From contig NC_054886.1 in the NCBI RefSeq assembly GCF_018320785.1, positions 32,595,732 through 32,659,731 of the forward strand: a stretch of 64,000 nt of DNA, given 5' to 3'. Below, in pieces: positions 4,824 to 63,447 of the stretch. This stretch comes from Cheilinus undulatus (Eukaryota; Chordata; Actinopteri; Labriformes; Labridae). Under the pieces are notes generated by a model. It saw only the letters and a program-made list of their open reading frames with translations. It was not told where the DNA came from and made no database searches. A program made the translations under genes and the position numbers. Every line of letters starts with the position of its first letter. Positions within the stretch are counted from its first letter, which is position 1.

Positions 4824-29239
<24,416 letters not shown>

Positions 29240-29641: not shown

Positions 29642-29859
29642 TTACTAATTTAAGATTCTGATCTCAGCCAGTGCTCTTTTTTACCTGCTCATATCTGCAG
29701 TGGAACAATTACAGTAACTAAAATCTCATGGTCCGTTTTTATTAGAGCTTACAGGCTTGGGTGAGCTTTCCAAAACAGACACTCTCTTTGCCTTCAAAAT
29801 ATGATTCCTCCCTCCTCCCAAGTAGACACATTTTGAAATGGTGCCCTTTTAAGTGCTCT

Positions 29860-30600
29860 CTTAAGTGGACAAAATTGGACAAAAAGCCCTCTTTAGTGCC
29901 CTCTACGTGGAGAAAATTGGACAAAGTGCTCTTTTTAGTCCCCTGTAAGTGGACACATTTTGACAAAGTGCCCTTTTTAGAGCCCTCCAAGTGGACACCA
30001 TTTGACAAAGTGCTCCTTTTAGTCCCCTGTAAGTGGACACATTTTGACAAAGTGCCCTTTTTAGTGCCCTCCAAGTGGTCACTGTTTGACCAAGATCTCT
30101 TTTTAGTCACCTCTAAGTGGACACATTTTGACAAAGTGCCCTTTTTAGTGCCCTCCAAGTGGACACTATTTGACAAAGTGCTCCTTTTAGTCCCCTGTAA
30201 GTGGACACATTTTGACAAAGTGCCCTTTTTAGTGCCCTCCAAGTGGTCACTATTTGACCAAGATCTCTTTTTAGTCACCTCTAAGTGGACACATTTTGAC
30301 AAAGTGCCCTTTTTAGTGCCCTCCAAGTGGACACTATTTGACAAAGTGCTCCTTTTAGTCCCCTGTAAGTGGACACATTTTGACAAAGTGCCCTTTTTAG
30401 TGCCCTCCAAGTGGTCACTATTTGACCAAGATCTCTTTTTAGTCACCTCTAAGTGGACGCATTTTGACAAAGTGCCCTTTTTAGTGCCCTCTAAGTGGAC
30501 ACTATTTGACCAAGTGCTTTTTTTAGTCCCCTACAAGTGGACAAAATCTGACTCAGTGCCCTCTAAGTGGACAAAATATGCAGAAGTACTGCCTTAAGTA
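29860..30600. repeat. 42-bp minisatellite with 168-bp higher-order period
   Basis: The monomer runs AAGTGGACACATTTTGACAA then AGTGCCCTTTTTAGTGCCCTCC. Four monomer variants alternate in fixed order, so the marker AGTGCCCTCCAAGTGGTCAC recurs at 30063, 30231 and 30399, exactly 168 bp apart. Because 42 is divisible by three, long open frames exist on both strands (29761-30597 + and 29742-30470 -); both are repeat artefacts. It lies between abcg2 and the next gene. Confidence 0.92.
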
Positions 30601-31480: not shown

Positions 31481-31488
31481 TATAAATA
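31481..31488 (+). promoter_or_regulatory. TATA box of the odaph-like gene
   Basis: TATAAATA within CCCCTGTATAAATAGTTTAC, 224 nt upstream of the start codon. A start site about 30 nt downstream (near 31512) would give a 5' leader of about 190 nt. Confidence 0.65.
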
Positions 31489-31704: not shown

Positions 31705-34700
31705 ATGTTCTGGAGGTTTGCAGCTCTGTCTCTCATTTTTCTCCTCCTCCTCGTTCAAGGTCGGAACCTCAACTTGACTGACGGTGAGTAAAAATACACT
31801 CTTCTTATCATAATCTTTATCACACTCTGCTTTGGCTCTGTAGAGTAAAAACAATGTGGATCTGAAAGGTCACTTTGTGGGGTTGTTTTGGAACCAAGCC
31901 TGTTTTAATCTTGTCGTCTTCGTGCTAGCTTTGCCACAAACAAAGACAGACACAAAAGACAAACACACCTCAGAGCTTTCATCATGAAATATGCAGTACA
32001 GACTGACAGATTGGATAGCAGCACAGACACCTTAAACACTGACATGAAGGCTGCGGCACCTGTTGACCTATTTGTACCGACAACAGAAAGGTCCAGGGTT
32101 GAGTAAAGGGAGTGGCTAAAGACAAATAAAGCAAACCTCATATGCAAAACAAGCAATTTAAAAAGTAACTGTTCAGATCTTGTGAAATGTGCCGTTTAAC
32201 AACAATTTAGAGGGTTGTTGCAGACGTTTAAAAGTCGAGTAAAAACTATTTAAGAACCAATTGAAGAAATTTAAGACTATCTAGAACTTTAAAACCATGA
32301 TAGCCTTAGTTCTCTTCATATTCCACGAGGGACTCTGCAAGTTTTTACTGTTTCTTTTGGCACATCTTGCAAGGTGGCTCTTAACTGTGGCAAACAATAA
32401 ACATTCACAATAAAACAGCTTTATGAAACAACTTTGCTAATATGCTTTTACCCTAAGCTAACTAAATTTTGTTATTTAGCCAAACATTAGCATTATATTT
32501 GCAGACTCAAAGTAAAACCCCAAAGCTATTTTCTACTTTTACTTTAAAGTTCAAATTTTAGCAAGCTAAAAGAGCCCTACACAACTGTTATACATCCATC
32601 CATTTTCTACACTGTTTATCCTGTTGGGGGTCGCGGGGCTGGAGCCTATCCCAACTGTTATTGGGCGAGAGGTGGGGTACCTAGGCTGGTTGCCTGTCAA
32701 TCACAGTGCTGACACATAGAGACAGTCAACTAGATGTGCCCACATTCACACCTATAGCCAATTCAGAGTGATACAATAACTGGACTTAAATATTTATTCA
32801 TCGCAATTGGAATTTTTTTTGTTTGGTGTAACCAATCTTAATATAGCTATGTGTAAATATACTTGATATTTGCCTTAGTTTAAACTATGCTAAGTCACTC
32901 CTGACAATCTCATGCAAATCTGCTTCACTGTAACGTAACTTTCTTGGAAAGATGATTTTCAACTGACCAACGATTGTCAGAAATGTTATCAGCTGTCTGC
33001 AATTCATAATTCATTTTAGAAGTCATTTAAAGGTTTATGTTGGGGCACAGATGGCCTAGTGGTTAAGGTGCATCCCATTTGCACAGGCAACCGAGGTTCA
33101 AGGAGCCAGTGGCTCCTTTCCTGCATGTCTCACCCCCATTCCAGTTCACTGTCCTCCTCTATGATTAAAGTAAAACAATGCACAATGTATTTTATTGAGT
33201 TCATGTCCAATGGGGTTTTGTGTTTTTATTTAAGTTTCAATCACTGAGCTATGTAAATTTATATAAATATAGTTAAATGAAGTGGATTGGATTGAATAAT
33301 TGCAAGAAATTAACTCACATATCACATATTTTCCTCCATCAGTTCAGTACTTTTCCTCTCCATGGGAATTTGGCTTTCCAGAGATTGATGGCTCACCCGT
33401 GAACACGTGTGGGATCCCTTCTGCCTCCACCCTCGACATCACCACTACCACTACAGTATCCACTACAACCACAACTAAAACAACACCCGTCACCAGGAAG
33501 GTGAGTCAGCCCTAAATGAAAGCTGTAGATTGACTGGGATTTGGACTTACTGAAAAACGCTTTCTTTCCTTTTCCCATAAGGGGAAATCTGATAGGGTTA
33601 AGAAATCCAGACAAATATTCTCCAAGGCTCAAAGCTAGCTTAAAGGTTTATTGTACAACTTTTAGGGCAATTTTTAGACCAAAACAAGCGCCCCCTTTGG
33701 AAAAAAACAGACTCTTCTATATCTGTTCATGATCTGAAAATAAAATAAAATTCAGCCGACCTTCATATCCCTTGTGGTGGCAGGTCTAACTGTTCAAAGA
33801 GGGATGGTCTCACAGTCAAGTATGAAACATGTTTAAGCCTCTGAGTGAAACAAGCTGAAGCTAGCACCATCACGTTAGTGTGAACACAGAGCTGAGAACA
33901 GCAAACCCAGAGGAGGTTTGGAAGTCAGTACAATTAGTCAGTTTCATTGGGATGAGCATTGAAATCCAGTACCGACATAGTAGCGGTAGCAACACATCTG
34001 ATACCTAAAGTACCGAATGAAAATTTAGATTTAGGTACTTTGTTTTGGTACCTTGCTGCCCCAATGCCATCCCCATCACTCCAAAGGAAAGGAACAAAAT
34101 GCTTTATGTTAAGTTACACCTGTTTCTTTTACCTGTTTGTTCTACTGGCATCTTATCTCTAAATAATTTATATCAAGACAGCTGCCAACTTTTAAGACGT
34201 TTTTCTCTCGAGAGTATCAATTCTGGCACCGTTCAAGGATCAGTTTAGCACTGGTATTATAAAAACACACAAAGATCCCCAATAAACCTTCAATTAAGAG
34301 CCATGGATGGACCAATTAGAAGTCAGTTAAGAGTGCTGACTGACATGCTTTTTGTAGCCTTGCATTGCCTAGCTTTACCCATTCTTTCAAAGGTTTTTGC
34401 CTTCTTTAACCTCTTTTGTCACGCATTTTCCAGCAGGTGGTGACCACGATCAAAAAGCCAACCATCCAATCATCACCAAGAAAAGCTCAAACTAGAAAAA
34501 ATGTGACACCAATCAGGCCGATGCCTGCACCTTCAGCACCAATCACTAACAGACACTCCAACCCTTCCCTCAACCTTCTCTATCAGCTCCTGACCAACAG
34601 CAGGCGCCACCAGGGTGGCTCTACACTACGATTCAGAAATCTGAGCTCTCAGCCAATGGGAGGGCGGCCTCATCGAGGTCAAAGGGCTGAGAGAAAAAGA

Positions 34701-34742
34701 TGGAAAATGGGTTCGTCTTCTTCAGAGGACTCGAGTGACTAG
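31705..34742 (+). CDS. odaph: Small secreted phosphoprotein-like protein, candidate ODAPH (C4orf26) orthologue (3 coding exons, 181 aa)
   Basis: Exons 31705-31783, 33343-33500, 34434-34742; 546 nt, in frame. Residues 1-19 are a signal peptide (MFWRFAALSLIFLLLLVQG), so the product is predicted to be secreted. Then come a short acidic/aromatic stretch, a single Cys in NTCGIP, a Thr-rich mucin-like run (about 59-75), a Pro/Arg/Lys-rich basic body, and a C-terminal GSSSSEDSSD in which S-x-E sites fit the secretory kinase FAM20C. Human ODAPH is a small secreted basic enamel-matrix phosphoprotein that also ends in a Ser/Glu cluster, and in human it lies directly beside CDKL2; here cdkl2 is the next gene. 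That position plus the tail is the case for orthology; overall sequence similarity is weak. A classical SCPP gene is less likely, because the first intron here is phase 1. The exon-3 acceptor is a NAGNAG (CAGCAG), so one Gln may be optional. TATA box at 31481, poly(A) signal at 35133. Confidence 0.6.
32588..32780. repeat. Common fish interspersed repeat
   Basis: Starts ACATCCATCCATTTTCTACA and continues GGGGTCGCGGGGCTGGAGCC and ATTCACACCTATAGCCAATT, words found in a very abundant ray-finned-fish retroposon family. In intron 1 of the odaph-like gene. Confidence 0.6.
33046..33175 (+). mobile_element. tRNA-derived SINE
   Basis: GGCACAGATGGCCTAGTGGT followed by TAAGGTGC carries an RNA polymerase III A box (TGGCCTAGTGG), and ACCGAGGTTCAAGGAGCC carries a degenerate B box. 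It does not fold as a functional tRNA, so it is called a SINE head rather than a tRNA gene. Confidence 0.7.
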
Positions 34743-37122
34743 TCTTTAAATTATATCACATCTTCCTTTTGTTTTTGGGTACAACGTTTTTGTTAAAATC
34801 CAAGTCATGGAACGATTCTACAATTTCAGTCACAATTTTATAATGGGTTGACATGCATGTTGGAAAAAAACTGTTGCATTGTCATTATAGATGTTGTATA
34901 TTTCTAAAATGTGTATTTATTGGAATGTAACTATTTATTTTCTGCTGATGTACCAAACACCATGACCAATCTTAATTTTTGCCAATATTTTTATTTCCAT
35001 GATGTCCAGTTTAAAATTTCAGTATAGAATAGTTTAACAAATATACCAAAAAAGTATTCACATATCAAACATCCTGTTCGTCTGAATAAGAAGTGCTTAG
35101 TTGTTGTTACATAAAACTTTTAATCAACTGTTAATAAAATGCTTTATCACTCATAAATTTCATAAGCTTTAAATTCTATCACCATATGTATAAAATGCAG
35201 CCTCACCCAAATAATATGAGCATTTAAAATTTGCCAGATATGTCATCCATGATGGAGGTGGTCCTTAGATCCTTGTGGAGCATGTCTTGTATTTCATAGC
35301 TTTAAGTTTAAATTCAGAGCGTTGCTTCTGTCAGTACATTCGTGTATCAGCACTGTTGTTTCCAAGCTTCTGCTGATCCGAGGGTGAAAGAGTCTGAACT
35401 GGTTGTTTGTCTTTTCTCTGATCTTTGGAGGGGCCTTTGGTGTGTTGTTTACCTGAGAACACATCAGAGGAAATCCTGTTGAACTGACTTGTGAAAAAAA
35501 CATGGGCAAACTTTGCTTTTCATTGTTTCTGAGCTCCTGAAGTCCTGAAATGAACTCTCTGGCCTGGGGAGATCCCTCAGAGTTTTGTTTTATAACTATA
35601 AGAGATTTAATGACAGATTTAAGTAGCCTTGATTGATTCTAGGCCCAGGTCACCCCACCAATGATCAAGCAGTCTTGGCTAACGTCAAGGCTCTGCAATA
35701 ATCCTCAAGTGTGTGGCGCAAATAGAAATAATGTACAGCTCCCATTGGGTCTGAGCCTATTAATGATTCCAGATTGGAATGTCTCCAATGGGATACGACT
35801 ATAGGTTTTTTGCAAATGATGTTGAGCTGCAGTGGAGAACTCCAGATGGGGTCAAGTAATTTATGCACAGACAGAAACATTAGTAAAATGGCAAGTTTAC
35901 GACTATGCCAACTGTTCAAAGTATGAAAATAAACATTCTTTAGCCACTTTTGTGTCCCGAAAGTAGAGCACATTCATCTAAAGGCTGGAGGAGTGGTGTC
36001 ACACAGCTATCGTACCATGTCCTTTCCCACAAAGTTGTCTGGCTTGGATAAAGAACAGTTTGCTTTAGCTCATTAAACTCTGATCTTGCACCTGTTCCGT
36101 CAGCCAGTCGGTCTCGTCTCACTTCTTGTGGAGAGAAAATCAATCTTTTTAAGGAGATGTGAATCATTTGGCTCATCTCAGTAGAACTGGTTGTTCAGCT
36201 TCCAAACGGCTCTTTATTTGGCAGTTTGGCTTTTTAAATGTGGATTATATAAAAAATAGAGGAAAGAAAACTGGGAGCTAGCTACTGTGGTTCAGTTTCA
36301 GAGATCATGCTCGTTCGTGAACAACATGCCATCATTCAGGCTCTTGCCTCACAAGGTTTATTTTCTGAGAAGTTTATCAGTGTCTCAATTAAAAGCATGA
36401 CAAGGACATACAGATGCAACAAAAGAAGATATGTGGTTGGTTAGAGTCACTATGGTGCTCATACCTTCTCTTCCTCTGAGCTCCGGCAACACTGAACTTC
36501 TTACATTTGGGAAATGGATGTCAGACTTTCTTTTGGCCACTAAATTGCCACCGCTGTTACTAACGTTACAACGGTCAGACAGGAAGGAGTGCTCGCAGAT
36601 TTGACTCCTCTCTGGCATCTGAAGAGAATAGAGAGGAAACATTGGACAAGCAGTTTCTTCACTGGGGTGGTATTAGCACATACACTGTGTTACCTGGTAC
36701 GTCAGTGGTCCTGTAAGGTGGCTGGGCAAAGACTGTTGGGTCAATCGACTGTACATGCCACTCTGATGCCATGGTTTTTCTGTGCACCTTTGAGGAAACA
36801 CACTAAATCGTAATCTAGAACATGGCAAATTGTTCCGATAACAATTAACTGTTTTGTTGGGTGTGTGAAATCAGAGCAAAACTCAACATTTCAAATGTTG
36901 TATATTCTGACTTACTCAAGGGACAATTTTACATTCTTAACTATAAAGTGTTGTCAAGAAAATCTACAAAACATGACAGTTCTTGTTTTTATAATGGTCA
37001 GGTGACCTGATACTTTTGTCCGTATAGTGTACCTTACTATATCATTTCAAAGCTGCACCTGAGAAACGTACAGACTAGACCTCATTGAGCAAAGGCTTTC
37101 AAGTCTTTAGTTTTCTGCTAAA
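34743..37122. other. Region between the odaph-like gene and cdkl2 (converging genes)
   Basis: Contains the 3' UTR of the odaph-like gene to about 35160 and the 3' UTR of cdkl2 on the other strand. No gene is supported; the 71-102-aa frames at 35294-36176 have no domains. A Tc1-like end, CTGATACTTTTGTCCGTATAG, lies at 37007-37027. Confidence 0.5.
35133..35138 (+). terminator. Poly(A) signal AATAAA of the odaph-like gene
   Basis: AATAAA about 390 nt downstream of the stop codon, in an AT-rich 3' UTR. Confidence 0.6.

Positions 37123-44741: not shown

Positions 44742-63447
<18,706 letters not shown>

Follow-up and report, generated by a model that had tools for sequence, protein, structure and literature searches.

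Gene order and coding exons in the window

The window, i.e., the whole 64-kb stretch of Cheilinus undulatus DNA that was analyzed, carries a candidate gene of three coding exons on the forward strand, between abcg2 and cdkl2. The features of this region, in order of position, are the following.

near 4861-5103, forward strand: earlier abcg2 exon, assigned by eye
16945..29239, forward strand: abcg2, with exons that match the human protein from residue 66 on and the stop at 29239; upstream neighbour of the candidate
31481..31487, forward strand: TATA-box-like TATAAAT (pattern match), 224 bases before the ATG; putative promoter element
31705..31783, forward strand: coding exon 1, 79 nt; apparent signal peptide and first mature residues; ends in phase 1
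33343..33500, forward strand: coding exon 2, 158 nt; PEIDGSPVNTCGIP motif and Thr-rich segment ending in TPVTRK; ends in phase 0
33408..33410, forward strand: codon of Cys49, the sole Cys of the wrasse protein, within CGIP in exon 2
34437..34742, forward strand: coding exon 3, 306 nt; starts at 34434 if the alternative acceptor is used
34710..34739, forward strand: GSSSSEDSSD C-terminus, a predicted target of the S-x-E kinase FAM20C that would be phosphorylated
35133..35138, forward strand: AATAAA, candidate poly(A) signal (pattern match)
41523 to ~37126, reverse strand: cdkl2, with kinase exons from 41523 to 39415; tail to tail with the candidate

The three coding exons join in frame across GT...AG borders and end with a stop codon at 34740-34742. 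Exons 1 and 2 add up to 237 nt, which places intron 2 in phase 0, and intron 1 is in phase 1. Exon 3 is preceded by a tandem CAGCAG acceptor; thus, the product has 180 or 181 aa, the longer form using the upstream CAG. This exon encodes a basic Pro-containing body, the LLYQLLTNSR and SQPMGG motifs and a C-terminal Ser/acidic cluster, followed by the stop. At the other end of the protein, the N-terminus is hydrophobic and, by eye, looks like a signal peptide. The initial annotation had described a 181-aa protein from three in-frame exons, with a signal peptide, a Thr-rich segment, a single Cys in CGIP, a body rich in basic residues and GSSSSEDSSD at the C-terminus, and a TATA box and a poly(A) signal around its gene. 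Our analysis confirmed the 181-aa frame, and the remaining elements were all recovered: the sequence motifs are present, the N-terminal residues have, on inspection, the look of a signal peptide, and both signals correspond to pattern matches. The 180-aa form, which is also possible, is identical to the public protein P0001 of C. undulatus (humphead wrasse), recorded as nucleolar and spindle-associated protein 1-B-like isoform X2. The gene model is, therefore, already in the databases, under a misleading name. Since an identical public wrasse protein exists, together with related proteins in 11 other named fishes, the candidate is not a chance reading frame. Within intron 1, the segment 33040-33160 resembles, by eye, a tRNA-derived SINE.

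In structure-library searches, ABCG2 was the nearest match of an abcg2 exon, and the first cdkl2 exon best matched CDKL2 (86.6 bits, vs. 72.9 for CDKL1). A 715-residue open last exon would also belong to cdkl2, judging from its position and the appearance of its first residues. Given the end of abcg2 and the extent and orientation of cdkl2, the candidate lies directly downstream of cdkl2. Neither abcg2 nor a Tec-family kinase, which lies beyond cdkl2, is known to be a neighbour of ODAPH in human, and conserved synteny is thus limited to the cdkl2 side; G3BP2 was absent from the 64-kb window. In PMC7807025, non-eutherian Odaph was likewise sought downstream of Cdkl2, using intron-spanning RNA-seq reads.

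Other elements were observed in the window. Between abcg2 and the candidate, a minisatellite (29818-30562) consists of approximately nine copies of an 84-base unit (2 x 42) and creates spurious long reading frames on either strand. Beyond cdkl2, a gene for a Tec-family tyrosine kinase is present in pieces on the reverse strand at 44945-55825; the piece at 48862-49161 had ITK and BTK as its best matches, and the other pieces were assigned by eye. A fragment of a Tc1/mariner-type transposase (DDE_3, HTH_Tnp_Tc3_2) lies at 8494-9186 on the reverse strand, and a reading frame at 60063-60521 on the forward strand matches the Pfam family ALKBH8_N, a match common in LINE retrotransposons.

Related proteins in spiny-rayed fishes

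Two protein searches, the first yielding 8 proteins and the second these 8 plus 7 more, gave 15 related proteins in total, including that of the wrasse. The second search scored only the 7982 candidates with the most shared words; because such a search catches only sequences with common short words, missing relatives in other fishes mean little. Besides Cheilinus, the named carriers are 11 species, all of which we take to be spiny-rayed fishes: Labrus mixtus, Scatophagus argus, Gasterosteus aculeatus, Zoarces viviparus, Cyclopterus lumpus, Chelmon rostratus, Sebastes umbrosus, Sparus aurata, Pagothenia borchgrevinki and two Dissostichus species.

The alignment comprised 13 of the 15 proteins, omitting a second stickleback model (P0006) and a partial notothenioid sequence (P0008). 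Exons 2 and 3 are both conserved among these fishes, and the majority consensus includes PEIDGSxVDxC, TKKPAVQ, GTPIRPQPAP, SLLxYLLANSR, SQPMGG, an SSSDSDE cluster and a C-terminal SSEDSSDES. The Cheilinus and Labrus proteins end at SSD, the tail Glu being replaced by Ala in Labrus, and the middle acidic cluster is absent from the Cheilinus protein. Exon 2 of Sparus encodes two adjacent Cys. At the junction of exons 2 and 3, an extra Gln is present in some species (e.g., RKQVV in P0011) and absent from others, a variation that would fit a phase-0 tandem acceptor. Every one of the 13 sequences contains S-x-E motifs, from 1 to 5 per protein.

A Pfam scan of 8 fish proteins returned no domain at its cut-off. 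The Thr-rich segment gave weak mucin-like profile matches, and a New_glue match of P0003 (residues 61-107), which falls within the Thr-rich stretch, was discarded for being below the cut-off. Six unrelated automatic names (those of P0001, P0003, P0006, P0010, P0012 and P0015) are in use for this one family; apparently, the database names stem from low-complexity matches.

Comparison with mammalian ODAPH

As a positive control, the human ODAPH sequence was recognized by the Pfam family PF15848 with an E value of 3.4e-48. Used as a query, it retrieved 93 proteins from 111 candidates, 87 of them carrying PF15848; no fish-named protein and no non-mammalian ODAPH was among the 93, some of which have no species name. 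From these matches, 49 formed the mammalian set, from which short or near-duplicate models, reading frames with no stated source and six proteins without PF15848 (P0103-P0108) were omitted. In the mammalian alignment, conservation is highest in TDCQIFTLTPPPTTRxPVTR and in SSSEE. Only 11 of the 49 proteins end exactly at SSSEES; the other 38 do not.

Direct searches between the two families gave little. PF15848 was not matched by the 8 fish proteins at E values up to 10, in a search whose filters remove most matches above 0.1. The hhalign comparison of the fish and mammalian profiles had a probability of 1.9% (P 0.025), and the Cys motif was the only part aligned. Nothing was gained from BLASTP of the fish protein against human isoform 2, which is uninformative because this isoform carries no ODAPH domain.

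Profile-to-profile scoring was done under two schemes. With ends-free BLOSUM averages, no signal was obtained: the observed score was 1.2, vs. 4.4 for the reversed profile, the best path was trivial, and the observed score was reached by 42/300 column, 75/300 block and 42/300 window shuffles. The second scheme used log-odds column scores with end-to-end alignment, and was then run under 24 settings; its p-values are weakened since it was chosen after the first result was known. In its first run, the score was reached by 0 column, 0 block, 8 window and 3 rotation controls of 400. Column shuffles never reached the observed score in any of the 24 settings (0/300 in each), while the harder controls did so to varying extents (within-window 1-32/300, block 0-17/300, rotations 0-4/158). 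Taken singly, 12 of the 13 fish proteins exceeded all of their 100 self-shuffles; the exception was P0013, which covers a piece of exon 3 lacking the Cys and whose score 2 of the 100 shuffles reached. In a decoy test with the disordered cdkl2 tail, 111 overlapping windows of this one decoy gave a highest z of 1.88.

In these log-odds runs, and in the part-by-part comparison below, the mammalian profile was truncated after GSSSEES, the point at which just the 11 mammalian proteins mentioned above end. With the uncut profile, column shuffles remained at 0/300, window shuffles reached the score in 11/300 cases, and single sequences exceeded their shuffles in 11 of 13 cases. Rotations, nevertheless, reached the score in 31 of 158 cases, vs. 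1 with the cut profile, and this result slightly lowered our confidence in orthology. The profile comparison suggested by the initial annotation, made here with mammalian ODAPH, was of mixed outcome: nearly all single proteins exceeded their self-shuffles with either profile, and neither PF15848 nor hhalign recovered the relationship.

Where the likeness resides was addressed part by part in the 10 of the 13 sequences with a full N-terminus, the mature starts, and the exon 2/exon 3 borders of the other species, being set by eye or by motif. After removal of the C-terminal tail, 6 of the 10 full-length fish proteins still exceeded all 100 shuffles. The exon-2 part resembles the N-terminal part of mature ODAPH, with z of at least 2 against the mammalian profile in 8 of the 10, and the exon-3 body resembles the mammalian middle in one protein and not in the other nine. 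Based on these scores, the two ends of the protein appear alike and the middle does not.

The fish candidate and mammalian ODAPH are both small and (for the candidate, apparently) secreted proteins, with a phase-1 intron 1 close behind the signal peptide. The Cys follows the intron-1 junction by 22 codons in the wrasse, 20 in human ODAPH and 19 in mouse. Intron 1 is located at c.67/68 in human; Cys43 in human, and nt 64/65 and Cys41 in mouse, are the positions given in PMC7807025. The fish motif reads D-T-C-x-I-F (DTCRIF) and the mammalian one D-C-x-I-F (TDCQIF), followed in both by T-P, and P-V-T-R is found in mammalian ODAPH and in two wrasses (PVTRK, at the end of exon 2). Near or at the C-terminus, the fish tail is GSSSSEDSSD(ES) and the mammalian tail GSSSEES; the fish Ser cluster, whose phosphorylation is predicted, is thus SSSSEDSSD(ES) instead of the SSEE type of ODAPH. 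In contrast with mammalian ODAPH, the fish protein is longer, is rich in Thr, carries no Cys beyond exon 2 and lacks a Phe/Arg-rich middle.

Probable orthology to ODAPH and possible role in enameloid

We consider that, in spiny-rayed fishes, the candidate is probably the positional ortholog of ODAPH, with both ends kept and the middle changed almost beyond recognition. This reading is favoured by its position next to cdkl2, the intron-1 phase, the motif and spacing of the Cys, the C-terminal tail and the self-shuffle results; the phase-0 intron 2, the lack of an exon-3 Cys, the lack of PF15848, the unalignable middle, the weak hhalign result, the null outcome of the first scoring scheme, the less clear harder controls, the want of a fish-named protein among the matches of human ODAPH and the Ala in the Labrus tail count against it. 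Because of the intron-2 phase, the missing exon-3 Cys and the missing Pfam match, we refer to it as a probable positional ortholog of variant form and not as a confirmed ODAPH member. Orthology had been proposed from locus and architecture: the cdkl2 side, intron-1 phase, Cys motif and tail favour that proposal, and the intron-2 phase, exon-3 Cys, Pfam result and middle do not.

The principal alternative, which we regard as appreciably less likely, is a fish-specific gene for a secreted phosphoprotein or mucin-like protein that arose or settled beside cdkl2, the true ODAPH having been lost. Its likeness to ODAPH would then come from Thr/Pro-rich bodies and acidic Ser tails, which are common in secreted mineral-related proteins. 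This would account for the differences just listed in intron-2 phase, exon-3 Cys, middle, Pfam and hhalign, for the number of fish-profile rotations that reach the score with the uncut mammalian profile, and for the mucin-like profile matches of the Thr-rich segment, all of them weak. However, it requires that the location, the phase of intron 1, the last residues and both the motif and the spacing of the Cys all agree by chance.

Membership in the SCPP family, a set of genes of tooth and bone, is very improbable. The SCPP genes are clustered on the same human chromosome as ODAPH, and their products (AMBN, ENAM, ODAM, AMTN and the fish scpp proteins) are, like the candidate appears to be, secreted, low-complexity and provided with S-x-E motifs. 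Nevertheless, all SCPP introns are in phase 0 according to PMC7807025, and the phase-1 intron 1 of the candidate led us to reject this assignment; additionally, the words odaph, abcg2 and cdkl2 do not occur in the text of a 2026 survey of SCPP genes in 63 teleost genomes (PMC13367325). That the database names assigned to P0001, P0003, P0006, P0010 and P0015 are correct, i.e., that this is a nucleolar/spindle, let-653-like, endochitinase A-like, kinase or kinase inhibitor protein, is hardly credible and was rejected, since the names conflict within one family, the N-terminus reads as a signal peptide and no Pfam domain reached the cut-off in the 8 proteins scanned.

Regarding the favoured reading, a fish ODAPH, its function may be outlined by analogy. 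Enamel maturation in mouse and human requires ODAPH, whose phosphorylated form promotes hydroxyapatite nucleation in vitro (PMC7807025). In mammals, ameloblasts express Odaph from the post-secretory transition, and the protein accumulates at their basement membrane; when Odaph is lost, a cyst separates the ameloblasts from the enamel and maturation fails (PMC7807025, PMC13331816). The fish product would be secreted, O-glycosylated in its Thr-rich segment and phosphorylated by FAM20C in its S-x-E tail. It would act where the tooth epithelium meets the maturing enameloid, either in mineral binding or in epithelial attachment, in the manner of mammalian ODAPH at the basement membrane of ameloblasts.

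As a more tentative and rather doubtful proposal, teleost ODAPH may be a fast-evolving, Thr-rich survivor with a continuing role in the tooth epithelium during enameloid maturation, and the mammalian two-exon gene may correspond to exons 2 and 3 joined and not, as in the published view, to the loss of exon 2. Such joining may explain the mammalian gene because the fish C-x-I-F exon corresponds to the beginning of the second exon in mammals. In PMC7807025, mouse exon 2 is given as coding nt 65-165, which would place a phase-0 boundary within the coding region of the mouse gene, yet mammalian genes are described there as two-exon. The mammalian reading frames P0050 and P0097, which look genomic, continue straight through the mouse exon-2 end point.

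True enamel is lacking in teleosts. A surviving teleost ODAPH would mean that the gene outlived it, would make removal of the gene possible in laboratory fish and would account for several misnamed fish proteins; the fate of the gene in toothless fishes would bear on whether it has a tooth role in fish too. Our literature search, based on titles and the start of abstracts and with subscription journals mostly outside its coverage, found no report of a teleost ODAPH.

Odaph orthologs have been reported in alligator, anole, caecilian, gar and reedfish, and non-mammalian Odaph is described as having both introns in phase 1, with exon 3 encoding one or two Cys (PMC7807025). The candidate differs from this description in its phase-0 intron 2 and in the exon-3 Cys, found in 0 of 13 fish sequences. 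As judged from that published description, the candidate shares with non-mammalian Odaph the three coding exons, the phase-1 intron 1, the single exon-2 Cys, the Ser/acidic cluster and the chromosomal position.
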